From Thermoanaerobaculum sp. (GTDB lineage: Bacteria > Acidobacteriota > Thermoanaerobaculia > Thermoanaerobaculales > Thermoanaerobaculaceae): 33,863 bases of DNA. The notes beneath the pieces were generated by a model, which did not search any database, was not told the origin of the DNA, and saw only the letters and a list, made by a program, of their open reading frames with translations. This document shows, one piece after another, positions 1 through 33,863 of this stretch (position 1 is the stretch's first letter; each line of letters opens with the position of its first letter). The stretch covers positions 1 to 33,863 of the forward strand of contig JANXCP010000015.1 in NCBI GenBank assembly GCA_025060245.1. Reading direction: 5' to 3'. The position numbers and the translations under genes are program-made.

Positions 1-1
1 G

Positions 2-544
2 GAGCTGCAGGTGACCGTGCTCTTCCCCGATGGCAAGACCCGGCCTGGCGTGGACGCAGTGGCTTGGCTGCCCGTGCCTGAGACGCGCGGAGCTCCCAGC
101 CATCGGCCCACCCCCCAGGTGGTGCAGCGAAACAAGAAATTTGAGCCGCGGGTGGAGGTGGTCTCGGTGGGCACCGAGGTGGCTTTTCCCAACTTGGACC
201 CCTTCTATCACAACGTGTTCTCCCTCTCAGAAATCGCGCCCTTTGACCTAGGCCTCTACCGCAAAGGGGCTTCCCGGAGCGTGTTTTTCGCGCAACCTGG
301 GGTGGTGAGGATCTACTGCAACATCCACCCGAAAATGGTGGCTTTTCTGGTGGTGGTCCCCTCCCAATTTTTTGCCAACACCAACGAAGCAGGGCAGGCT
401 CGCCTAATGGGGATCCCGGCGGGGGAACACTCCCTCCACCTCTGGCACGAGATGGCGGGGGAATCCCAACCAGCGGTCACGGTGGGGGGTTCCCTCACCC
501 GCCTGCATGTAACCCTTGACGGCTCAGCCTACCGTCCGCAATAG
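2..544 (+). CDS. Cupredoxin-like exported protein, 5' end cut by window
   Basis: The reading frame is open from the first bases of the window, so the true start and probable signal peptide lie outside it; the GTG at 11 is only the first internal start codon. Counting from that GTG, a blue-copper-type ligand set is visible: His67 in YHNVFS, then Cys103, His106 and Met109 in CNIHPKM. This spacing is that of plastocyanin-like domains, as in proteins often labelled methylamine utilization protein. The first visible residues, followed by the GIPAGEHSLHLWHE stretch near the end, resemble carboxypeptidase-regulatory-like beta-sandwich repeats that frame such domains. Expected location is the periplasm, with a role in electron transfer or copper binding; no substrate can be named. 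It is followed after 67 bp by a damaged Cache/HAMP kinase receptor and then a convergent damaged porin. Confidence 0.8.
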   Translation, partial: ELQVTVLFPDGKTRPGVDAVAWLPVPETRGAPSHRPTPQVVQRNKKFEPRVEVVSVGTEVAFPNLDPFYHNVFSLSEIAPFDLGLYRKGASRSVFFAQPGVVRIYCNIHPKMVAFLVVVPSQFFANTNEAGQARLMGIPAGEHSLHLWHEMAGESQPAVTVGGSLTRLHVTLDGSAYRPQ

Positions 545-611
545 CACAAGAACAAGTACAGCAAGGATTTGCCGCGCCCAGACGATGACGACAACCGTTA
601 CTAGGTCGCCC

Positions 612-2700
612 ATGTCCACTTTTGATTCGGCACCCACCGTGCGGGTGAAACCAACCCTTCCTGCGGCCGCCGTGCGCCGGGGTCCAGGCCTGGCAGCGCG
701 CTTTTCCCTCACCACCGCCGCCGTGGTGGCGGTGAGCCTGTTCGTCACCGTGGTCATCCTCACCCGGACGGCCAACCGCGTGGCTCTTACAACGGTACGG
801 AGCGATCTGCAGCGGGTTACCGCCATTTTTTCTTACTGGTCAGTCGACGCCCAAATGCCATTCCGCTCCCAAGTCCGCTCCATGGCCGCAGAACCCGGGA
901 GCAAGGCGTTGCTCGACCCAGGAGTGTCTGCGCAAACCCGCTACGAATTTGTGGCGCGAGACGCCCCTCTGGTACTGGAGGCCAAGACCGTGTTCCTCTT
1001 TGACCGGGAAGGGAAGGTCCTGGCCCGCAACGATCTGGCCCTCGGCGAGGGCCTGGGCCAGCCGTTTGGTGGCGTGGCCTGGGTGGCCGAGCCCCTCAGC
1101 AGCTGGCAGGAAGCCTCAGCGGTGATTCGAGAAAAAGACACCCTCTCCTTCGAGGCCGCCGCTCCGGTGGTTGCCGGTTCTGGGGAACTGGCCATCCTGG
1201 ATGGGGTCCTGGCCGCCTCCTTTCCCCTGGACGAGCAGGCAGCCCAATCCCTGCAAACGCTCACCCGAGGGGAGGTGTCGTTCGTGGTGGATCGGGCACG
1301 GGCCGGCCAGCCCACCAGAGCCGAGCTGTCCCATGCCACCCCAGGCTATCCCAGAGCAGCCTTTTCCGATTTCATGGATCGCCACCCTGCCCTGGTTGAG
1401 GCGGTCTTTCGCCGTGGGGAAGCCTTTGGGCTCTTTTCCCTGGGGTCCACCAACGGCACTTTTCTTGCTCTTACCATACCCATCAAAGGAACCACCGGCG
1501 AGGCCTACGGGGCCCTTGCCGTCCTTCGCCCCCTTTGACCAAGAGCTCTAACCCTTCCTGGGCATCCGCAACGCCATCGTGCTTGTGGGCATGGGGGTGC
1601 TCGCCGTCGCCTCAGCCCTGGCCTTTCATTTAGGAGGCAAGCTGGCGCACCCCATCGCCTCCCTAGCGGCGGCTGCCGACGCCGTCCGTGAAGGGCGGCT
1701 GGAAGTGGCCCTCCCGGAGGCCGGTGTGGACGAGGTGGGCCGCTTGGCCAGCGCCTTTCGCGGCATGGTCTCAGAGCTTAGAGAAAAACGTGCTCTGGAA
1801 GAGCTGGTTGGCGGCCTGAACCGACGTCCCCTGGGCCCCAGCCCCACGCCGCCATCGGCCATGCCGCTGGTGGAAGGGGAAGTCCTAGGTCGCCGCTACC
1901 GTCTGACGAGTCTTCTCGGCCGGGGAGCCAAGGGGGAGGTGTACCTCGCCCATGACCCGGAGCGGGACGAGGACGTTGCCTTGAAGGTCCTGCGGCCGGA
2001 GAGTTTTCCCGACGGCACACAGGCCATCCAATCGGTAAAAGAGGAAATCCGCGTGGCACGCCGCATCACCCACCCCAACGTCGTTCGGGTCCATGACTTC
2101 GGCGAAGCCAGCGGGGTTCGATTCCTGACCATGGAGTACGTGCCCGGCCTTACCCTGCGGCAGGTCATTGAGCAGGAGGGTCCCATTGCCCTCGGCCCAG
2201 GGTTGCAAATTGCCAAGCAGGTGTGCCGCGGGCTTTCGGCGGTGCACGAGGCGGGCATCCTCCATCGCGATATCAAGCCCCAGAACATCATGGTGCTCCC
2301 CTCAGGGTTGGTGAAGCTCATGGATTTTGGCATTGCCCTGGTCCAACAAAGCCAGAGGCAGGCGGAGGAGGTGGCTTCCACCCCCCTGTACATGAGCCCG
2401 GAGCAGCTCGCCTCCCAGCCGCTGGATGCGCGCAGCGACCTCTATGCCCTCGGGGCCACCTTGTAGGAGATGTTGACCGGCAAGCCCCCCTTTACCGGCT
2501 CCCTGCCGGAAGTGGTGGCCCTGCACCTCCGCGGCGCTCCCGCTCCCCTGTCCCACCTCCGCCCCGGGCTGCCCGAGGTCTTGCAACGGCTCGTCATGGC
2601 GTGCCTGGCCAAAGAGCCCTCGCGCCGGCCCGCCTCGGCGGGCGACCTGTACCAGTCACTGCTGCGCGTCTCGCTCCAGGAAGCCGATGTGGAAAGCTAA
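612..2700 (+). pseudogene. Cache/HAMP transmembrane serine/threonine protein kinase, disrupted
   Basis: When intact this would be a membrane receptor kinase: short cytoplasmic N-terminus, first membrane segment (about 30 residues in, LTTAAVVAVSLFVTVVIL), periplasmic Cache-like sensor with FLFDREGKVLARND, second membrane segment (NAIVLVGMGVLAVASALAF), HAMP linker, then a Hanks-type kinase. Kinase motifs present are the Gly loop GRGAKGEVY, the Lys in VALKVL, HRDIKPQN, DFG and MSPEQL. Three lesions interrupt it. Frame 3 ends at TGA 1536-1538 while the homologous continuation FDQEL lies in frame 1, implying an indel near 1530. Frame 1 then meets TAA at 1549-1551. TAG at 2464-2466 replaces the Tyr expected in ATLYEMLTGKPPF. 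After each lesion the homology resumes at once. Start ATG 612 is chosen just before the membrane segment; in-frame ATG 585 is possible, and neither has a good ribosome site. Confidence 0.85.
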
Positions 2701-2765
2701 TGACCAAGCGCAAACCGGCGCCACCGCGGCGAAGGGCCTCACCTGCCGGCCGGTTGTGGCGCCGC

Positions 2766-4089
2766 CTAGAACCGCACCCGCAGAGTCGTCCGGGTGCAAG
2801 CTGCGCCCGTTCCAAAACTCCATGTCGTGGCGAGCGTACTCCAGGGTGATGTCCAGGCCGGAGAGGATCCCCACCCGAATCCCCACGTCCCATTTTTGCC
2901 AATCCCAAGCCAACGAGGGGGCAAAAAAGCCACTGGGCACGAAGAACTCGTTTTCAATCTCGGAAAAGCGGACCGCTGGCTGCACCCTATTCACCACCGG
3001 TTGGTCCCCCGAAAGCACGAACCCGGGCAGGGGGAACCGCCAGGCCACCTCCACCTCCAGTCCATGACGTTGCAAATCGGCAATCTCCTGTTTCACCGCT
3101 TGGGCAAACACCCGTAACCCCCGCCAACGCACCCGCCCGTTGAAACCCAGCTCCGTTTTATCCCTGCCGGAGAAAAGCATTGGGTTTTCTTACCCGCGCA
3201 GCAGCTCCAGCTCACCCCGGTACACCGTCCCACGGATGCGCTCTCCTTGCGCCACGGTGCGGCGGAAACCCCAGACCAAACCTTCCGCTCCCTCACCGGT
3301 CTGCGGATGCCACCAGCGCACTCCTAAGCCAAGAGCGGTCTCCCAGTGGCCGGAGAAGTTCACGTCGTTGCCCTTGGCATCGTAGAGGATGGGGAATCCA
3401 GAAAAGTAAACCGGTCCGTCAGGAGCTCGCCACTGCTCCGCTGTCCCGTTGTCCCCGGCCAAGACATTGGTGTCGCGAAGGAAGAGGGGATTAGGATTGG
3501 CCACGTGCAGGCGAAAAAAGACGTGGGGACTCAAATTGCCACCCATCTGCAGCTGCACTTGCTCAAACCTCCCAAAAGCGGTGCCCCAAAGGCCATAACT
3601 TTCCAGTCGCCGGTCCAACTGCTTGGTAAAACGCGGGGCCTTACCCAGCAGCAGAAAAAACCAGAACCCTGTGGGCTTTCCCGCTCCTCCTTTTGGCCAA
3701 AGACCGGCCAGGCCTCGCGCAGGTGCACGCGATCATCGGAGGAAGTGGGGTTGCGGTCGTAGAGGTCCAAGAGGTGCACCTTCAAGCGGCCGTGAATTTC
3801 CGGCAAAAAGCGAGCATCTAACATCAACGCCAGGTTTGACACCTCAAAGGATTCTTGAGGAGCGGGGGTGCGGAGTAGCCACCCCCCCCGGGGGAGAAGC
3901 CATCTCCGGTGCTCTGAAGGAACGGGGCACCACCTGCAGATCACGGGAGGAGCGAAAATTCAACTTCACCTCCGCGCTAAGCTCCAGGGTGGGATAACCC
4001 TCTTCCGCTGCCGGCGGTCCCTGGTCAGCGGCGAGGGAGGAGCCGACCAGCAGGATCCCAAGCAAAAAGGAAAGCAAACGTTGGTTCAT
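2766..4089 (-). pseudogene. Outer-membrane beta-barrel porin, disrupted
   Basis: The gene begins at ATG 4089 with a clear signal peptide (MNQRLLSFLLGILLVGSSLA) and ends in TLRVRF at 2766; a terminal Phe is the usual C-terminal signature of outer-membrane barrels. Between them, homology-like segments lie in different frames. A first frameshift sits near a run of eight C at 3882-3889. A second lies between about 3660 and 3710, where REAWPVFGQ shifts to LLLGKAPRF. TAA at 3190-3192 is in frame inside the barrel. A third frameshift near 2770-2800 leads into the correct C-terminus. Conserved-looking stretches include RRLESYGLWGTAFGRFE and LFLRDTNVLAGDNG, resembling phosphate-selective or OprO-like porins of Acidobacteria and related groups. 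The substrate cannot be inferred. It converges on the damaged kinase with 65 bp between them and diverges from the transporter at 4292. Confidence 0.8.
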
Positions 4090-4291
4090 GGAAAACCCCG
4101 GTTTGCCTGCAACCTGCGAGGCTGGCCGCTGCCTTCCCACCGACGGGCTAAGACGGCAAACGCCTAATGCGCGGGGCGCCGTTGGGGATGCCCCTTTTCC
4201 TCATTCCCATCGCCCCTTCGACCGAGCAGCAAGGCGCACCGGTAAAGGTGGTATGCTCAAGCGCTCCGCCCGAGGGCGGAGGGAGGTGCTC

Positions 4292-5704
4292 ATGGTTCGC
4301 GGTCTGGTAGGCAGCTTGCTCCTGCTCACGGCCCAGCTGGCAGAAGCGGCAAGTTCGGGAGACCTGGGAACTCAGCTACCCGCTTGGAGCGCTCTTCCCT
4401 TTGCTGGAATTCTCCTCTCCATTGCCCTCTTCCCCTTACTCGCACCCCGTTTTTGGCACCACCATTACCCCAAGGTGGCAGCCTTCTGGGCGGTGGTATT
4501 GCTGATCCCGTTTGTTGCCGCCTACGGTGGACCCGCAGTGCACGAGGTCTTGCATATGGCCATTGCCGACTACATCCCCTTCATCATCCTCCTCGGCACC
4601 CTGTTCACCATCGGCGGCGGGATTTACCTCAGGGGTTCACTGCGCGGTTCACCCCCCGTCAATGCCGCCATCATGGTCATCGGCACGGCCCTGGCTTCGT
4701 GGATCGGCACTACCGGCGCCGCCATGTTGCTCATCCGGCCCCTTTTGCGAGCCAACAAGCGCCGGCGTTACCGCGCCCACACGGTGGTTTTCTTCATCTT
4801 CCTTGTGGCTAACATCGGCGGATCGCTCACACCCCTCGGCGACCCACCTCTGTTTTTGGGCTTCTTGCACGGCGTACCGTTTTTCTGGACCCTTACCATT
4901 TGGAAGGAAATGCTGCTGGTAGCGGGAATCGTTCTCGGCATCTACCTCATCCTGGACCGCCTACTTTGGGCCAAGGAAAGTCCGGAGGTGCGGCAGGCCG
5001 AAATGGGAAGTGAGAAGCTACGGGTGGAGGGATGGCACAACTTCTTCTTTTTGGCCGGCGTGCTGGGGGCGGTCATCGCCTCCGGGGTCCTCCATCTGCC
5101 CGATGTGCACATACTTGGGGTGCAACAACACCTGCAAAACCTGCTGCGTGATGGGTTTTTGCTGCTGATGGCGGCGGCTTCCTGGCTGACCACGCCGCGC
5201 CGCGTGCGGCAAGAAAACGAGTTCTCTTGGGAGCCCATCCGCGAAGTGGCGATCCTCTTTGCTGGGATCTTCGCCACCATCATCCCCCCCTTGGCCATGC
5301 TGCGTGCCGGCGAGCACGGCGCCTTGGGGTTCATCATCAAGGCGGTGGAGACCCCTGCCCACTTCTTCTGGGCCACCGGTTTGCTGTCGTCGTTTTTGGA
5401 TAACGCCCCCACCTACCTCACGTTCCTCTACACCGCCTTGGGCCAGCTTTACCCAGGGATGCCACCCCGCCCGGCTATCCTTCAGCTGGTAGCTGAAAAC
5501 CACGCCTACCTCCAGGCTGTGGCCACTGGAGCGGTGTTCATGGGGGCCAACACGTACATCGGCAACGCGCCCAATTTCATGGTGAAGTCCATTGCCGAAG
5601 AGCAAGGGGTGCCGATGCCCTCCTTTTTTGGCTACATCTTCAAGTACACGCTGCCGGTACTGATCCCCACCTTTATCTTGGCCACATGGGTGTTTTTCCT
5701 GTGA
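4292..5704 (+). CDS. NhaD/CitMHS-type sodium:proton antiporter family protein
   Basis: This 470-residue polytopic membrane protein belongs to the ion transporter superfamily that includes NhaD and CitMHS. It starts with a cleavable-looking signal segment (VRGLVGSLLLLTAQLAEAA), followed by about a dozen hydrophobic helices. Typical family stretches are ASWIGTTGAAMLLIRP, GGSLTPLGDPPLFLGFLHG and SSFLDNAPTYLTFLY; the last two form the re-entrant, substrate-site hairpins of the two halves. The likely role is Na+ or other cation exchange for protons at the inner membrane, though anion transport in this superfamily cannot be excluded. Start ATG 4292 is chosen for the GGAGGT ribosome site at 4281-4286; longer in-frame starts at 4088 and 4253 run into the divergent porin region. 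A gene of unknown function follows after 7 bp and is probably cotranscribed. Confidence 0.88.
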   Translation: MVRGLVGSLLLLTAQLAEAASSGDLGTQLPAWSALPFAGILLSIALFPLLAPRFWHHHYPKVAAFWAVVLLIPFVAAYGGPAVHEVLHMAIADYIPFIILLGTLFTIGGGIYLRGSLRGSPPVNAAIMVIGTALASWIGTTGAAMLLIRPLLRANKRRRYRAHTVVFFIFLVANIGGSLTPLGDPPLFLGFLHGVPFFWTLTIWKEMLLVAGIVLGIYLILDRLLWAKESPEVRQAEMGSEKLRVEGWHNFFFLAGVLGAVIASGVLHLPDVHILGVQQHLQNLLRDGFLLLMAAASWLTTPRRVRQENEFSWEPIREVAILFAGIFATIIPPLAMLRAGEHGALGFIIKAVETPAHFFWATGLLSSFLDNAPTYLTFLYTALGQLYPGMPPRPAILQLVAENHAYLQAVATGAVFMGANTYIGNAPNFMVKSIAEEQGVPMPSFFGYIFKYTLPVLIPTFILATWVFFL

Positions 5705-5711
5705 GGTGCGT

Positions 5712-6263
5712 ATGAGCTGGGAGCTCTTTGTGATCAAGGGTGACCGCGCCTTGGTGCGTGGCTTCGTGCACGGCTTTGTCTGGGGCGCCGGGGACCCGCA
5801 GGGGGTGCACTGCGAAGCGGAGCTGCCTTTAGAAAAGGAGTCCTTGGCCACCTGGTTGCAGCTGGGACCTCATCAGCGATTGCTGGTGAAATCGCAGCTG
5901 GCGGAGCGGTTGGCCGCAGCCCTCGGCGAAACCCACGAGGAGTTGAAGGTGCAGCTCCAAGAACGCCTGCCGGTGCGGGAACTGGCTTTTCACGTTGAGG
6001 CCCGGGTGTTTTCCCCAGAACTCGCCGCAGCGCTGCAAGAAAAGCTCTTTGCCCACCTGCCCGAAGGAGTGGAGGTACGGGACAAGAACGAATCCCAAAG
6101 CCAGGATACGGCCGCACGAGGGGCAGAACTGTACGCCCCCGTACATCACTTTGACTACCGCGTTTCCTGCACCTTTGCCGGTACGGTGGAAGGGATCTTG
6201 GACCTGCACCGCCGTCTTTCCGGTACCGATTTCGTCAAGGTCTCACCGTTGCGGGTGCGCTAG
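5712..6263 (+). CDS. Conserved-looking protein of unknown function (183 aa)
   Basis: I do not recognise the family. The product is soluble and mildly acidic, with no signal peptide or membrane segment. It begins MSWELFVIKGDRALVRGFVHGF. A central part is rich in Leu, Glu and Gln and probably helical (LAERLAAALGETHEELKVQ, ALQEKLFAHL), and the C-terminal third looks like mixed alpha/beta (FDYRVSCTFAGTVEGILDLH). Start ATG 5712 is preferred to the in-frame GTG at 5706 because GAGGTG at 5703-5708 then serves as ribosome site, overlapping the end of the transporter gene. The 7 bp gap suggests translation coupled to the NhaD-like transporter, so an accessory or regulatory role to transport is possible but only inferred. 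It converges on the pentapeptide-repeat gene, 22 bp apart. Confidence 0.75.
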   Translation: MSWELFVIKGDRALVRGFVHGFVWGAGDPQGVHCEAELPLEKESLATWLQLGPHQRLLVKSQLAERLAAALGETHEELKVQLQERLPVRELAFHVEARVFSPELAAALQEKLFAHLPEGVEVRDKNESQSQDTAARGAELYAPVHHFDYRVSCTFAGTVEGILDLHRRLSGTDFVKVSPLRVR

Positions 6264-6285
6264 CCGCCACCTGGACCACAGCCCC

Positions 6286-7749
6286 TTAACGGCGATCGCG
6301 GGGCACCCCTGCCCGACGGAGGATGGGGTCCTTGCCCTCCAGCTCTCTCACCAGTCGCACCGTCTGCTGAATTCGCCGCTGCCGTTCCCGTTGCAAGGCT
6401 TCCTGGCGTTTGCGCCGGATCGCCACCAGGGCGCTGGCAAAAATCAAAAGAAAACGCCAGGGCCAAGCCGCCCAAGGGAGCTTGGCCCCCTTCAGACGAC
6501 AGCCCCAAAAGTTGGCACCTACCACGGCAGCGTTGGTGAGATCCGCCCGCCGCAAATCCGACCACAGAAACCGGGTATGACGGCAATCGGCGCCGATGAG
6601 GCGGGAGAAACGCAGATCCGCCCGCATCAGCTCAGCCCCTGTGAGGTCGGCCAAGACCAGATCGCAGCCGGAGACGTCTGCGTCCTCAGCTTGTACTCGC
6701 GCCAGACGGGCTTGGCGCAGCTTGGCCCCGCGGAGGTTGGCGCCGGTGAGCACCGCCTCCTCCATCACCGCACCTTCCAAATCCGCCTCCCGGAGGTCCG
6801 CCCCTTCCAACCGCGCCTGCTCCAGGCGAAAACGGGCCAGGTTGAGGCCACGCAACAGGGCACCGGTGAGGTTCGCCCGCACCAACGAGCAGCCCTCCAA
6901 CCGCGGCAGGCGCAGGTCCTGCCCCGCCCAGTTGGAGGCAGCTAGCTGCACCCCCTTGAAAGAGGCCTCTGCCAGGAGGCAGCCGCGGAAGTCACAGCCC
7001 TGCATGTCACAGGCCACCACCTGCGCTTGCTCCAGGTCGGCATCGCGAAGCGAAGCCTTGTTCAGCTCGCACTTTTCCAGGGTGGCGCCCTTGAGTCGCG
7101 CCTCCTGGAAACTGGCCTCGCGCAACACCGCGTCGCGAAAGATCACCCCCTGCAGGTTGGCACGGGCGAAGTTGGCGCGCACCCCGTAAAAGCTCACAAA
7201 GCGAGCGCAAGCCAGGTTCAGGTCTGAGAAATCAACCCCTTCCGCCATAGCCTGATCCAACACGGCCGAGGAAAGGTCCGCGCCTTCCCAGCGGACCCCA
7301 CGAAGACTGGCACCGCTGAGGTTAGCCCCGGCGAGATTCGCCCCCGTGAACAACGCACCCTCCAGGTTGGCCTTGGAAAAATCCGCCTCCCGAAGGTCAG
7401 CAGCGGAAAAATCGGTGCCGCGAAAGCTGGCCTGGGAAAACCTGGCCCTGCGGAGGTTAGCCCTGGCCAAGGACACCAGGTCCAGGCTCACGCCGGTGAA
7501 ATCGGCTCCCTGGAAGCTGGCCCCCGAAAGCCTCGCTCCCTCCACCACAGCAAAGGCCAAAATTGCCCCATCCAGGTTGGCCCCGTGCAAATCCGCGTGG
7601 CGCAACACCGCGCGGGACAAGTCTTTTCCCCGCAAGTCCTGCCCTTGTAGGTTTGCACCCGTCAGGTCTGGGGCAATCCTCGGGTTTTCTTGGCGAAAGC
7701 GCAACCAATCTGGAGAAAGCAGCAGCCGAAGGTGCTCGGCGTTGGCCAC
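6286..7749 (-). CDS. Pentapeptide-repeat protein with C-terminal membrane anchor
   Basis: The 487-residue product is mostly tandem pentapeptide repeats of the A(D/N)LXX type from about residue 30 to 420 (DLTGANLQG, ANLEGALFTGANLAGANLSG and many more), which fold as a right-handed square beta-helix. Near residue 428 a hydrophobic segment WRFLLIFASALVAI is followed by a long basic tail, so the helix is probably tethered to the inner membrane. The frame is open to 8043, but the upstream part overlaps recG. GTG 7749 gives an N-terminus VANAEHLRLLLSPDWLRF, which matches the MANEEHL-type start common to such proteins, so I start there. No ribosome site precedes it; a TACAAT box lies 6 bp upstream (see promoter entry). 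The function of most such proteins is unknown; a few mimic DNA and protect gyrase, but nothing here points to that. Confidence 0.88.
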   Translation of the reverse strand: MANAEHLRLLLSPDWLRFRQENPRIAPDLTGANLQGQDLRGKDLSRAVLRHADLHGANLDGAILAFAVVEGARLSGASFQGADFTGVSLDLVSLARANLRRARFSQASFRGTDFSAADLREADFSKANLEGALFTGANLAGANLSGASLRGVRWEGADLSSAVLDQAMAEGVDFSDLNLACARFVSFYGVRANFARANLQGVIFRDAVLREASFQEARLKGATLEKCELNKASLRDADLEQAQVVACDMQGCDFRGCLLAEASFKGVQLAASNWAGQDLRLPRLEGCSLVRANLTGALLRGLNLARFRLEQARLEGADLREADLEGAVMEEAVLTGANLRGAKLRQARLARVQAEDADVSGCDLVLADLTGAELMRADLRFSRLIGADCRHTRFLWSDLRRADLTNAAVVGANFWGCRLKGAKLPWAAWPWRFLLIFASALVAIRRKRQEALQRERQRRIQQTVRLVRELEGKDPILRRAGVPRDRR

Positions 7750-7755
7750 GGCGAG

Positions 7756-7761
7756 ATTGTA
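7756..7761 (-). promoter_or_regulatory. Candidate leaderless -10 box for the pentapeptide gene
   Basis: On the minus strand GCTACAAT lies 6 bp before the GTG at 7749, in the gap after the recG stop. That spacing would put the transcription start on or next to the start codon. No -35 match is visible 16-18 bp upstream. The same CGCTACAAT-N4-CCGTG arrangement precedes the LD-carboxypeptidase gene at 11554. Confidence 0.4.
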
Positions 7762-7768
7762 GCGGAGT

Positions 7769-9859
7769 TCAGCCGGGGGGAATGTCCTCGCCCAGGGAAG
7801 GGGGCAAACTAAGACCCGCTTCCAACTGCTCCAGCTCCCCCGCCTCCAACGCCTGTCGAACCAGGGTCCGCGCCAGGTCCAGCTCGCTCTGGTGCAAGAG
7901 CAAGCTTGCCGCACGGAACTCTGGCCTTCCCCACTGGCGCATCCCGGTGAACTCTCCCGGTCCGCGCAGGCGGAAGTCCTCCTCGGCCACAGCGAAGCCG
8001 TCGGCGGTGGAAGCAAAAAATTCCAGGCGTTGCCTGGCTTCACGGCTCACCTGCTCGCCCAACAGCAACACGCAAAAGGAGCGCCGCTGGCCCCGCCCAA
8101 CACGCCCGCGCAGCTGGTGCAACTGCGCCAAGCCAAATCGCTCGGGGTTCTCAATGACCATGAGGGTCGCCTCTGGCACATCCAGGCCCACCTCAATCAC
8201 CGTCGTGGCGAACAACACGGCGATCTCCCCCTGGGCAAAGGCCCGCATGACCGCATCCCGTTCCTCCGGCCGCAGCCGCCCATGGACCGTGCCACAGGCG
8301 ATTCCCTCCAACTGGCGGCGCAAGGTCCGCTCGTGGGCCTGCAACGACTTCAGGGCAGGGGTTTCCGACCCTTCAATCACGGGGAACACCCAGTACACCC
8401 GCCCGCCAGAGCGCGCCTCCTCGCGCACGAACTGCAACAGCTTGGGCAAGGCCTCTCGTTCGCGGATCACGGTGCGGACGGGGCGTCGACCGGGAGGCAA
8501 CTCATCCAGCACGCTCACCTCCAGGTCCCCGTAAAGGCTGAGGGCCAAGGAGCGCGGAATTGGCGTGGCAGTCATCACCAACAGGTGGGGGGAGCTGCCT
8601 TTTTCCACCAAGCGCTGCCTCTGACTGGTGCCAAACCGGTGTTGCTCGTCCACAATCGCCAAGCCAAGCCGGGGCACGGTTACCGTTTCTTCCAACAGGG
8701 CATGGGTCCCCACCACCAACGCCGGCGACCCCTGTTGCAGCGCCTTCCTCACTGCCTCTTTCTCTCCGGGGGCGAGGGAGCCAGTGAGGAGGTAAACGGG
8801 AAAAGGGATACGAGCAAAGAGCTTTGACAGGGTGGTCCAGTGCTGCTGGGCCAAGACCTCCGTGGGCGCCAGGAAGGCCACCTGATAGCCCGAGGAAAGC
8901 ACCACCAGACTGGCCAAGGCCGCCACCACGGTCTTGCCGGAGCCCACATCCCCTTGCAACAACCTGGCCATAGGGGTGGGTTTTTGCAAATCAGCCACAA
9001 TTTCCCCCACCGCCCGCTTCTGCGCACCGGTCAACGGGAAAGGGAGCATGGCGCGCGCCCACTCTCGCTCCCGTTCGCTCACCTGACAACGGGGTGCGGC
9101 TAGGGCGGACCGGGCAGCCCGCGCCTTTTCCAGGACCAAGGCCAAGCCAGCAAACTCCTCCAAGGCCAAACGCCGGTGGAAAAGGGAGGTGCGGCCGTAC
9201 ATTTCGTCCAAGAAACGGCCGGCGGCTGCCTCCTCCGTGGGTAGCTGAGGAAAGTGCACCTGCTGGAGTGCTTGCGCCAAAGTGGGATACTCACCGCCCA
9301 ATAGGCGGTCCAGGACACCCTCTGCCACCTCCACTCGCGCCAGAGCCGCAGCCATGAGACTGCGCAGCCAACGCCCGCTGGCCGGTCCTAGACGCCGGTA
9401 GACGGGCACCACCCTTCCCAGGTGGAGGGGTTCACGGTCTTCCTCCACCTCCCACTCCGGCGAGACCAGCTGTAAGCCCCACCCCGAACGGGCGAGGCGC
9501 ACGGTCCCGTGCAGCCAGAGGCGCACCCCACGGCGTAGGCTGCGCGCCACGTAAGGTTGGTTGAACCAGACCACCGGAATGGCGCCGGACCCATCCTGGA
9601 CCAAGGCCTCCACCAGGTGGAGGGCACGGGTCCGGGCGCGCCGCTCCCGCAGGTCGGTCACTTCCCCCACCAAAGTGACCGTCACATCGGGGGTAGCCAG
9701 GGCGCCGATGGGGGTGGGGCTGGAGCGGTCCTCGTAGCGATAGGGCAAATACCAGAGGAGGTCGCCCACGGTCACCAAGCCCCGCTCCCGGAGCTGGCGG
9801 GCCCGCACCGAACCCACGCCGGGGAGGCGGTATAGCTCCGCGGCAAGGTTCAGGGTCAT
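7769..9859 (-). CDS. recG: ATP-dependent DNA helicase RecG
   Basis: RecG remodels stalled replication forks and branch-migrates Holliday junctions using ATP. The 696-residue length is normal. Residues 1-160 hold the helix-hairpin-like LPGVGSVRARQL motif and the OB-fold wedge domain. The helicase core follows: Walker A GDVGSGKT near residue 305, motif II DEQHRFG (RecG-type DEQH in place of DEAD), motif III VMTATPIPRSL, and motifs V-VI with TTVIEVGLDVP and QLRGRVGRG. The C-terminal TRG-type region is present with FRLRGPGEFTG. Start ATG 9859 overlaps the stop of the upstream cNMP/FHA gene by 4 bp (ATGA), so the two are translationally coupled. The pentapeptide-repeat gene follows 19 bp downstream. 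Confidence 0.97.
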   Translation of the reverse strand: MTLNLAAELYRLPGVGSVRARQLRERGLVTVGDLLWYLPYRYEDRSSPTPIGALATPDVTVTLVGEVTDLRERRARTRALHLVEALVQDGSGAIPVVWFNQPYVARSLRRGVRLWLHGTVRLARSGWGLQLVSPEWEVEEDREPLHLGRVVPVYRRLGPASGRWLRSLMAAALARVEVAEGVLDRLLGGEYPTLAQALQQVHFPQLPTEEAAAGRFLDEMYGRTSLFHRRLALEEFAGLALVLEKARAARSALAAPRCQVSEREREWARAMLPFPLTGAQKRAVGEIVADLQKPTPMARLLQGDVGSGKTVVAALASLVVLSSGYQVAFLAPTEVLAQQHWTTLSKLFARIPFPVYLLTGSLAPGEKEAVRKALQQGSPALVVGTHALLEETVTVPRLGLAIVDEQHRFGTSQRQRLVEKGSSPHLLVMTATPIPRSLALSLYGDLEVSVLDELPPGRRPVRTVIREREALPKLLQFVREEARSGGRVYWVFPVIEGSETPALKSLQAHERTLRRQLEGIACGTVHGRLRPEERDAVMRAFAQGEIAVLFATTVIEVGLDVPEATLMVIENPERFGLAQLHQLRGRVGRGQRRSFCVLLLGEQVSREARQRLEFFASTADGFAVAEEDFRLRGPGEFTGMRQWGRPEFRAASLLLHQSELDLARTLVRQALEAGELEQLEAGLSLPPSLGEDIPPG

Positions 9860-18315: not shown

Positions 18316-19149
18316 ATGGAACCGTGGTTGATCGTTGGCGCGGGTCGAGTAGGAACGCAACTGGCACGGGCCCTTTTCTTGCGGGGACTGCCCCTGGCAG
18401 GGCTGGTGTATCGCTCTGCCGAAAGTCAACGAAGGGCAGCCAGCGCGGTTCCTGAACAGCTCCTCCTGCCGCTGGGTGCATTGCCCCAGCACGAGCGCCT
18501 GCTTTTGGCCGTGCGCGATGGTGAGGTGTTCAGCATTGCCAGCGCGTTAGCCGCCCAGGTGGGCCAGGGTGGCCTCGCCCTGCACACTTCCGGCGCTTTG
18601 GGACCCGAAGCGCTCACGCCTTTAGGCGAAAAGGGCTGGGAAGTAGGGGTTTTTCACCCCCTCGTACCCATTCCCCACCCAACCCACCCTCCGGTGGATT
18701 TTTCCGGGGCGGTGGTGACGCTGGCCGGCACAGCTGAGGCGCTCAACGCCGGGGAAAAACTGGCCTTGGCCCTGGACATGCTCCCCGTACCCTGCTCCCA
18801 GCTGCACTGGCCCCTTTACCATGCTGCCGCCACCCTGGCTGGGCCCATGCTGTACGCGCTCATTCATGCAGCCAAGCAGGAGCTGCAACGGGCCAACTTT
18901 CCTGCTCCCATGGTCCCGCAAGCCCTAGGGGCTTTAGCCCAAAGGGCACTGGCGTATGCCCTCCAGGCTCAAGGGTGGGAGCACCTTACCGGGCCACTGG
19001 TGCGCGGGGATCGCACGACCATGGCGCAACACACCGCGAGTCTAACCCCACCTGTGGCGGCAGCCTATGAAGCTCTTGCATCCTATGTGTCTTCCAGCTT
19101 CACCGGCGATGTTCCATGCCAAGGCCAAATGCCTAAACAGGCCAGCTAG
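18316..19149 (+). CDS. Rossmann-like domain and DUF2520 protein
   Basis: The 277-residue product starts with a dinucleotide-binding Rossmann fold (LIVGAGRVGTQLARAL, a GXGXXG motif) and has a helical C-terminal domain of the DUF2520 type (YHAAATLAGPMLYALIHAA, TGPLVRGDRTTMAQHTASL). Such proteins resemble 6-phosphogluconate or ketopantoate dehydrogenases, and the motif HTSGALG followed by VGVFHPLVPI is typical of the family. The reaction is unknown; it is presumably a cytoplasmic NAD(P)-dependent oxidoreductase. Start ATG 18316 is the first in frame and lies right after a TATCAT box. It is transcribed away from the heat-shock operon. Confidence 0.85.
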   Translation: MEPWLIVGAGRVGTQLARALFLRGLPLAGLVYRSAESQRRAASAVPEQLLLPLGALPQHERLLLAVRDGEVFSIASALAAQVGQGGLALHTSGALGPEALTPLGEKGWEVGVFHPLVPIPHPTHPPVDFSGAVVTLAGTAEALNAGEKLALALDMLPVPCSQLHWPLYHAAATLAGPMLYALIHAAKQELQRANFPAPMVPQALGALAQRALAYALQAQGWEHLTGPLVRGDRTTMAQHTASLTPPVAAAYEALASYVSSSFTGDVPCQGQMPKQAS

Positions 19150-19516
19150 CACCACGGAAGGGCTGGCCCCGGGCAAGGCCTTGGCTTTTTTCTGACCTGT
19201 TGTGGCAAGCGCACGCAAGGTGTGCGCCGAGGACGATCCCTTGCCCTGTGGCGTTACCAACTCCAACCCCGTAGCCGGTGGGCCTCCCCATCGTGGCGGG
19301 TGCCGCCCGCTTCCGCGCACGGGCCGGGCAAGTTGACAAGGGAAGCAATTGATGGCAAGCTTGCCTCCGGTGAGGTAGTGCGGTACGCGTTGGATTTCCA
19401 AGGTGCGTGCAACAAGCCGCGAAAGAAGGCGAGTTCGCGGCGTATTCCTTTGGCCGCTGGGACGCCCCCAGCATGGACCCAGGTTCTCCACGTGAGGGCC
19501 TTATGAGGAGTGCAGC
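19150..19516 (+). other. Long leader/intergenic region before the cold-shock gene
   Basis: These 367 bp contain no credible gene. A TTGACA at 19333-19338 is a perfect -35 consensus, but no -10 match lies 16-19 bp downstream, so the promoter is not located. GAGG just before the ATG at 19517 is the likely ribosome site. Cold-shock genes often have long structured 5' leaders that act as temperature-sensitive RNA switches; that would explain the length but is inferred from the family. A run of T at 19185-19191 after a GC-rich stretch may end transcription of the upstream gene; I could not draw a convincing stem. Confidence 0.4.
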
Positions 19517-19717
19517 ATGGCAACAGGTACGGTGAAGTGGTTTAACGAAACAAAGGGCTTTGGCTTCATTACCCAGGAAAGCGGTGAGGATGTGTTCGTG
19601 CATTACACCGCCATCGTGGGGGAGGGCTTCCGGACCCTCAAGGAGGGCGCCCGCGTGCAATTTGACGTAGAGCGCGGTCCCAAGGGGCTCCAGGCCAAAA
19701 ACGTGCGGCAAATCTAG
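19517..19717 (+). CDS. Cold-shock domain protein (CspA family)
   Basis: The 66-residue single-domain protein is full length for the family. It has the start [18 protein letters not shown]1 (KGFGFI, residues 13-18) and RNP2 (VFVHY, residues 26-30), the aromatic residues that stack on single-stranded RNA or DNA. It should act as an RNA chaperone that melts structure in mRNAs. It is monocistronic: a long leader precedes it and a strong terminator follows at 19742-19767. Confidence 0.97.
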
Positions 19718-19741
19718 CAAGCATCAAAAAAGCCTGAGACG

Positions 19742-25608: not shown

Positions 25609-25939
25609 CGCTCACCCAAAGCACAGGTGCCCCATCCCAGCGGTACCGGTCCAGGTCCACTCGCCCCTGGCCGTCACACACCACCCCTTCTTCCGCTAAC
25701 AGCTGCCGCTGACGGTACGGGGGAAAATCGGGGAGTTTTTCCGTGGAAAGCCCTCCCTGGGCATTTACCACGCGGTGCCAAGGCACATCAGGCGGGCACA
25801 CGTGGAGCGCCCAGCCCACTGCCGCCGGTGAGAGTAGATAGCCGAGCCGTTCGGCAATTTGCCCGTAGGTCATAACACGTCCTGGTGGAATCTGTCGCAC
25901 CAGCCGATACACCAAGTCAAAAGCCTTAAGCTCAGCCAC
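25583..25939 (-). CDS. Alkyltransferase-like (ATL) protein, MGMT family
   Basis: The 118-residue protein matches the DNA-binding domain of O6-alkylguanine-DNA alkyltransferase (FDLVYRLVRQIPPGRVMTYG, QIAERLG, AAVGWALHVCPPDVPWHRVV) but has PWHR where the methyltransferase has the reactive PCHR. That Cys-to-Trp change defines alkyltransferase-like proteins, which bind alkylated guanine and flag it for nucleotide excision repair instead of removing the alkyl group. The length is typical of ATLs. The frame is open to 26107, but that region crosses the malic enzyme promoter and start; GTG 25939 gives the normal N-terminus. It overlaps the recombinase gene by 26 bp. Confidence 0.9.
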   Translation of the reverse strand: MAELKAFDLVYRLVRQIPPGRVMTYGQIAERLGYLLSPAAVGWALHVCPPDVPWHRVVNAQGGLSTEKLPDFPPYRQRQLLAEEGVVCDGQGRVDLDRYRWDGAPVLWVSDGRASSEP

Positions 25940-33233: not shown

Positions 33234-33270
33234 AAAAAGCGAAAGGCCCGCGATGGAACGCGGGCCTTTC
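33234..33270 (-). terminator. Rho-independent terminator of the rRNA operon
   Basis: On the minus strand a perfect 12-bp stem GAAAGGCCCGCG/CGCGGGCCTTTC with loop TTCCAT follows the 5S gene by a few bases and is followed by GCTTTTT. It ends the rRNA operon. Confidence 0.93.
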
Positions 33271-33275
33271 ATAAT

Positions 33276-33393
<118 letters not shown>

Positions 33394-33451
33394 AAACTTG
33401 CAACTTGGACAACTCAACTGGGTCGGCACACCAAGCGTTTGGAAATACTAT

Positions 33452-33863
<412 letters not shown>

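Follow-up and report, generated by a model that had tools for sequence, protein, structure and literature searches.

What joins a blue copper protein to a transmembrane receptor and an outer membrane porin, and why are all three genes broken? These questions are raised by the start of a contig from Thermoanaerobaculum sp. (GenBank contig JANXCP010000015.1, assembly GCA_025060245.1). The window analyzed here is this entire contig of 33,863 nucleotides (C66 in our numbering), from a genome of 2.35 Mb over 208 contigs, and the three-gene set is confined to its first 4.1 kb. An earlier note, made from the letters of the sequence, had described an exported cupredoxin, a membrane receptor with a periplasmic sensor and an outer membrane barrel, and each of these is present. 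From linkage, conservation and modeling, we think it reasonably probable that the window carries the decayed remnant of a receptor system coupled to a cupredoxin, which would act as a periplasmic input and inform exchangeable receptors of its redox state or of its loading with copper.

Linkage of the cupredoxin and receptor genes

A search for the window's sensor in 119 related genomes gave 29 matches in 28 genomes, and a cupredoxin gene directly adjoins 27 of these, including that of the window. The two matches that have no adjacent cupredoxin lie at a contig start (G083:C390) or are the weakest and partial (G038:C366). When named genomes were scanned with the cupredoxin profile, at least 537 relatives were returned, the best 80 of which were analyzed as named loci. 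A HAMP-containing receptor is found near the cupredoxin in 76 of these 80 loci; its open frame overlaps the cupredoxin or starts no more than 105 bases from it in 71, and is on the same strand in 70. Two of the four loci that have no receptor include less than 600 bases of downstream sequence. Named relatives of the set come from Thermoanaerobaculaceae and other Acidobacteriota. The earlier note had expected these families to recur together beyond close relatives, and the cupredoxin-receptor pair does so: it is found across Acidobacteriota, in two Myxococcota loci and on alpha- and betaproteobacterial plasmids.

So that the count would not depend on the best matches alone, the next 40 loci in the results of a search across 297 genomes of the phylum were added as two samples of 20, split by whether the cupredoxin match reaches the family's C-terminal tail (one contig-end row, G311, was passed over). 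When the whole locus of 4 to 9 kb is considered, a receptor is present in 19/20 loci with a match that reaches the tail and in 17/20 loci with a match that does not; within 1.5 kb, the values are 14/20 and 16/20. As a control, stretches matched in length to the loci of the first sample (and to that sample only) were taken 30 kb from them on their contigs; 1 of these 20 contains a receptor match. Chance neighborhood was rejected on the basis of this comparison (36 of 40 loci versus 1 of 20 control stretches). The profiles by which receptors and outputs were called were built from some of the same loci.

Properties of the cupredoxin

When compared with the PDB, the family profile matches solved blue copper proteins, including amicyanin. 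The copper ligands His, Cys, His and Met are kept in the window cupredoxin and in 80/80 named loci, and the ligand loop is short (Cys-x2-His-x2-Met). Based on the ligand motif and the profile match, the window protein is a type-1 cupredoxin and is predicted to bind copper. It reaches only 15 bits for Pfam Copper-bind (cutoff, 21.2), and the match to the amicyanin model TIGR02657 is far below the cutoff (18.2 versus 110.2 bits). The family is present in 166 of the 297 genomes of the phylum, and an alignment of 22 rows has 17 columns, the copper ligands among them, that are invariant across output classes.

The profile match in the window spans positions 8 to 601 with one TAG inside it, and the 19 residues after this TAG match the conserved C-terminal tail of the family, the motif of which occurs in all 80 named loci. 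The motif is missing from all 20 members of the second sample and, by pattern, from 2 of the first. We considered the tail as the coupler of cupredoxin to receptor and dropped this idea, since the tailless members are also linked to receptors (17/20). The proteobacterial cupredoxins are annotated as "methylamine utilization protein," and no methylamine genes occur in those of their annotated surroundings that were read.

The receptor and its sensor domain

The window receptor matches Pfam Pkinase (E = 1.9e-45) and HAMP (E = 2e-11) above the cutoffs and sCache_3_2 (E = 0.00086) below the cutoff. The Pkinase profile is matched over positions 1 to 186 before the in-frame TAG, over positions 1 to 253 when translation is continued across it, and over its full length in the related loci L022 and L027. 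Read across the TAG, the output is predicted to be a complete Hanks-type Ser/Thr kinase domain. The dCache_3 profile exceeds its cutoff in several histidine kinase, cyclase and GGDEF-EAL relatives, and Pfam Cache matches are below the cutoff in the Ser/Thr kinase forms scanned. A model of the L041 sensor (predicted local distance difference test [pLDDT], 91.8) retrieves with Foldseek the double-Cache ligand-binding domains of McpB, Tlp3 and DctB. As modeled, the periplasmic domain of the receptor is a double Cache, and it is followed by HAMP. One further cupredoxin-adjacent receptor (L086, positions 6581 to 9241) matches both Ser/Thr kinase and cyclase profiles and possibly has a double output.

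When 41 of the 76 receptors are aligned, identity to L041 is 17 to 26% for the ones whose output is not a Ser/Thr kinase. Before the second membrane helix, T83 is the only invariant residue, P159 and S281 are nearly so, and none of the invariant or nearly invariant residues is His, Met or Cys. This bears on the idea that the pair is a plain sensor of copper excess, in which the receptor or the cupredoxin gauges free copper and drives efflux, as in CusS and CopS, which are copper-sensing histidine kinases. The partner is indeed a blue copper protein, and ropAe of Rhizobium etli is reported as a precedent for a porin-like protein in copper transit (PMC6011978). The idea is weakened because the 41 aligned receptors show no conserved metal-binding His or Met of the CusS/CopS type in the periplasmic domain and because no copper pump or efflux family occurs among ten scanned representatives of the recurrent neighbor families, each family being named from one scanned member. 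We consider it very unlikely that such a sensor accounts for the pair.

The same data bear on a different explanation, that the cupredoxin carries electrons in a periplasmic redox reaction and the Cache pocket of the receptor senses a small molecule admitted by the porin, the genes having only a task in common. Consistent with this explanation, many of the solved double-Cache structures matched are chemoreceptor and DctB domains that bind small molecules. Two far cupredoxin relatives without a receptor nearby (L123 and L217) also adjoin genes for c-type cytochromes: one lies between two such genes, and the other has SCO, cbb3 oxidase and sox genes in its vicinity. In contrast, the ten neighbor representatives include no cytochrome or redox enzyme, and within the input it is the copper site, not the Cache domain, that varies least. 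We judge an electron carrier of this kind to be unlikely. The main ground for taking the cupredoxin as the probable carrier of the signal is that it stays constant on the input side, whereas the Cache domain diverges.

Exchange of receptor outputs

The earlier note pointed to diguanylate cyclase outputs in similar neighborhoods and a Ser/Thr kinase here. Output swapping is real and is wider than this: six outputs are found on receptors paired with the cupredoxin, namely, Ser/Thr kinase, histidine kinase, nucleotide cyclase, HD-GYP, SpoIIE phosphatase and GGDEF-EAL. Pfam searches with single receptors show HisKA with HATPase, adenylate/guanylate cyclase and HD_5 (HD-GYP) in addition to Ser/Thr kinase, and the outputs of 16 proteins were confirmed individually in this way. 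The SpoIIE phosphatase output is found in Paraliomyxa (Myxococcota), and GGDEF with EAL is found in Caballeronia and Comamonas; by annotation, Novosphingobium likewise has a cupredoxin followed by an EAL protein. The best 80 loci comprise 42 with histidine kinase, 26 with Ser/Thr kinase, 5 with cyclase, 1 with SpoIIE, 2 untyped and 4 without a receptor. Among 129 receptor loci, which are not independent in that L124 to L153 partly repeat other loci, there are 66 histidine kinases, 40 Ser/Thr kinases, 8 cyclases, 3 HD-GYP, 2 GGDEF-EAL, 1 SpoIIE and 9 untyped receptors, several of the last having sequence that ends early.

When the output label is placed on a tree of 120 cupredoxins (a quick tree with three long rows), it changes 8 times, versus a minimum possible of 5 and a value of 45.8 with shuffled labels. 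Swaps have therefore been few, and clades mostly keep their output.

Porin and other outer membrane partners

The window porin is 47% identical to the intact L022 porin over its readable frame. Searches with the porins of intact relatives against Pfam, NCBIfam and PDB sequences gave nothing above chance. A model of the intact L041 porin (pLDDT, 77) is a barrel that matches DcaP, OmpU and OmpK36 with a Foldseek E value of about 1e-9 and also matches OprO, which suggests that the family has the general-porin fold. The family is present in 46 of the 119 relatives, and 41 of these 46 also have a full-length cupredoxin, defined as a match that reaches position 194 (G073, with a partial start, was kept; G085, which is cut, was left out). 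Among the matches listed, 41 genomes have both genes, 12 have cupredoxin only, 5 have porin only and 61 have neither, a co-occurrence with a Fisher P value of 1e-15 that is inflated by relatedness.

A second, porin-like family adjoins 42/42 histidine kinase loci and 4/5 cyclase loci of the best 80. It is known by sequence rather than by fold: it has a coiled coil, lacks a Pfam match, and in 47 of 48 members ends in the C-terminal Phe typical of outer membrane proteins. An hhalign comparison of the two families has a probability of only 0.3 and does not establish a relationship between them. A further family, represented in the scan by an OmpR-type response regulator, adjoins 40/42 histidine kinase loci. 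On those plasmids with Caballeronia or Novosphingobium sets that were read, DUF3034, which we take to be a barrel, and truncated hemoglobin are beside the cupredoxin, and in the Comamonas set, DUF4394 is in the place of DUF3034. The recurrence of unrelated-looking porin-like families beside the pair supports an outer membrane partner, which probably belongs with the cupredoxin and the receptor.

Two further arrangements were seen. L047 has two porins of the set's family (positions 229 to 1656 and 4889 to 6283), one on each side of a single cupredoxin-receptor pair. The truncated hemoglobin beside cupredoxin and DUF3034 on the alpha- and betaproteobacterial plasmids (L121, positions 5560 to 7537; L214, positions 3551 to 5594; and L215, positions 3372 to 5534) is of group 1, a neighbor that hints at oxygen or nitric oxide chemistry.

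Decay of the set in the window

The earlier note held that two of the three genes are broken; the breakage stands, and the number does not, as the cupredoxin is broken as well. Mapped against two intact sets (L022 and L027) from the same family and order, the three genes have eight lesions of two kinds, in-frame stops and frame changes, within 4 kb (Table 1). The TAG in the cupredoxin is directly ahead of the conserved tail; because the copper site is kept, this lesion may be the mildest of the three. The receptor has one frame change and two stops, and the porin has one stop and frame changes at about 3.9 kb, at about 3.65 kb and near the gene end. The match of the kinase profile across its stop suggests that the decay is recent.

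Could these broken frames be errors of assembly or sequencing at a contig end, with the set intact in the living cell? The set is within 4.1 kb of the contig start, and its frames are known from the assembled contig alone, without reads. The rest of the contig provides a comparison. G002, of the same genus, has 29 protein matches along it, 4 of which are in RNase P or rRNA genes and 2 in one gene, leaving 24 protein genes, and all 24 are free of stops and frame changes inside the frame (one of them, at positions 19136 to 19720, is matched over only 207 bases). The stops that were counted in the G002 matches fall upstream of the first start codon of the window gene, the longest such stretch being positions 25609 to 25869. 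The other congener, G001, gives 14 matches, comprising 12 genes without inner stops, 1 RNase P gene and 1 weak antisense match. The genome encodes 10 kinase domains, and that of the window's receptor is the only one with an inner stop. Since 24 other contig genes are open and 9 of 10 kinase domains have no inner stop, the damage to the set is unlikely to be sequencing noise.

The distribution of the set in the genus also argues against such errors. Profile and sequence searches find neither the sensor nor the porin in the two congeners, whose only cupredoxin-profile matches are weak and confined to the second domain. A tblastx search of the congeners for remnants of the set gave scattered short matches that we take as noise, and searches of the window's own genome found the sensor, the cupredoxin and the porin once each. 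Synteny with both congeners starts at positions 4375 to 4376, just past the set. Although this might suggest a chimeric contig start, we judge that unlikely, as the base composition of positions 1 to 4289 resembles that of the remainder. Taken together, these results make an artifact of assembly or sequencing improbable. The set may have lost its use in this lineage.

Reading of TAG as an amino acid was also considered and was rejected: the cupredoxin's own terminal stop is likewise TAG, and the set has TAA stops and frame changes as well. Elsewhere, at positions 4935 to 5943 of L214 (plasmid pSBC1_4 of Caballeronia sp. SBC1), the cupredoxin is followed only by a short "cache domain-containing protein," and this GGDEF-EAL form may also be decaying. 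Further cupredoxin matches occur on other plasmids listed under that strain name.

Table 1. Positions of the three genes and of their lesions in the window
Feature	Positions	Strand	Basis
Exported type-1 cupredoxin, with a second, CarboxypepD_reg-like domain; 5' end lost at contig end	2 to 604	+	Family profile, copper ligands
Cupredoxin, open frame up to TAG	2 to 541	+	
Cupredoxin, in-frame TAG	542 to 544	+	
Cupredoxin, C-terminal tail beyond TAG	545 to 601	+	Aligns to tails of 19 locus proteins
Cupredoxin, own terminal stop (TAG)	602 to 604	+	Sequence
Double-Cache (modeled)/HAMP Ser/Thr kinase receptor, whole	612 to 2700	+	
Receptor, first membrane helix and periplasmic double Cache (modeled)	612 to 1529 (sensor frame runs to 1535)	+	Weak sCache_3_2, dCache_3 of relatives, model
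Receptor, frame change (between 1529 and 1540) and in-frame TAA (1549 to 1551)	1530 to 1551	+	tblastn, intact L022 receptor
Receptor, HAMP and Ser/Thr kinase, with in-frame TAG (2464 to 2466)	1579 to 2700 (open frame 1579 to 2463)	+	HAMP, Pkinase
Outer membrane porin, broken	About 2766 to 4089	-	In-frame TAA (3190 to 3192), frame changes, comparison with L022

Beyond the set, a gene for a pentapeptide-repeat protein of 585 amino acids (positions 6289 to 8043, minus strand) adjoins a RecG-like helicase gene, and both are matched in both congeners. The contig ends in 5S and partial large-subunit rRNA (positions 33276 to 33863). Positions 33234 to 33863 are 96% identical to G002, compared with 72 to 86% for other stretches, as expected for rRNA.

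Proposed mechanism

In the system that we propose, the outer membrane porin would let an ion or a small solute pass into the periplasm, where the secreted type-1 copper protein would change its copper-loading or redox state. The cupredoxin would then dock on the double-Cache domain of the neighboring receptor, and HAMP would relay the change to the output, which is a Ser/Thr kinase here and elsewhere a histidine kinase, a nucleotide cyclase, a cyclic di-GMP enzyme or a phosphatase. The three genes would thus form one pathway. A more far-reaching version is a redox relay across the envelope, in which the channel and the blue copper protein report an outside electron acceptor, electron donor or copper to a double-Cache/HAMP port. 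We regard this version as speculative and rather doubtful. If it were true, evolution would have fitted a common input port with six outputs, and cupredoxins would be periplasmic signal proteins, not electron carriers only.

Besides the reliance on an assembly mentioned above, several observations weigh against a cupredoxin-coupled receptor system. Contact between cupredoxin and receptor is presumed, and relatedness inflates every count given here. Not every cupredoxin of the family has a receptor close by (4 of the 40 sampled do not, nor do L123 and L217), so the fold also serves other ends. When 30 loci returned by the search of the phylum were examined with flanks of 1.5 kb, only 16 had a receptor, in part because the flank is short, and the two betaproteobacterial cupredoxins examined lack the tail. 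The porin is the looser member of the set: it is less than 4 kb from the cupredoxin in only 12 of the 41 genomes that have both (the window's genome included), and the window's porin family adjoins 11 of the 26 Ser/Thr kinase loci of the best 80. What the earlier note proposed as a three-gene set therefore holds for the cupredoxin and the receptor and holds less well for this porin family, with other porin-like or DUF3034 genes present elsewhere.

To our knowledge, the signals of most Cache receptors have not been established, and a redox-active copper partner would be a concrete candidate signal for a large group of uncharacterized ones. The interchangeable outputs make the system well suited to studying how a single input module works with very different enzymes, and the window adds a lineage that seems to be in the course of losing it, its three genes all being broken.

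Comparison with known systems

The titles and opening parts of abstracts in the open-access literature, a scope that leaves out most subscription papers, gave no description of a cupredoxin-receptor module. Several known systems resemble it in part. LuxP-LuxQ is a receptor assisted by a periplasmic protein, as GlnH-GlnX-PknG is reported to be. In both, as here, a soluble periplasmic protein goes with a membrane receptor that has a kinase output inside the cell, and the gene for the partner is beside that for the receptor in the present case in 27/29 and 76/80 loci. They differ from the present system in that the partner here is a blue copper protein and not a substrate-binding protein, that there are six exchangeable outputs, and that docking is presumed. 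With CusS and CopS, the window receptor shares periplasmic sensing with HAMP and copper as a candidate signal; unlike them, it has a Ser/Thr kinase output, it is paired with a separate copper protein, and its modeled double Cache is of a kind in which no His, Met or Cys is invariant.

The type-1 copper domain resembles amicyanin, which has the same Cys-x2-His-x2-Met spacing in its ligand loop, and differs from it (TIGR02657) in having an extra CarboxypepD_reg-like domain and, in the acidobacterial members, a tail as well. Porin-cytochrome electron conduits also combine an outer membrane barrel with a periplasmic redox protein, whereas here the barrel probably has a general-porin fold, a cupredoxin is in the place of the cytochrome and a receptor adjoins. 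By analogy, then, the system would work like receptors assisted by a periplasmic protein, and what is new would be the kind of partner, a cupredoxin, a pairing that hints at an unrecognized way of sensing copper or redox state.

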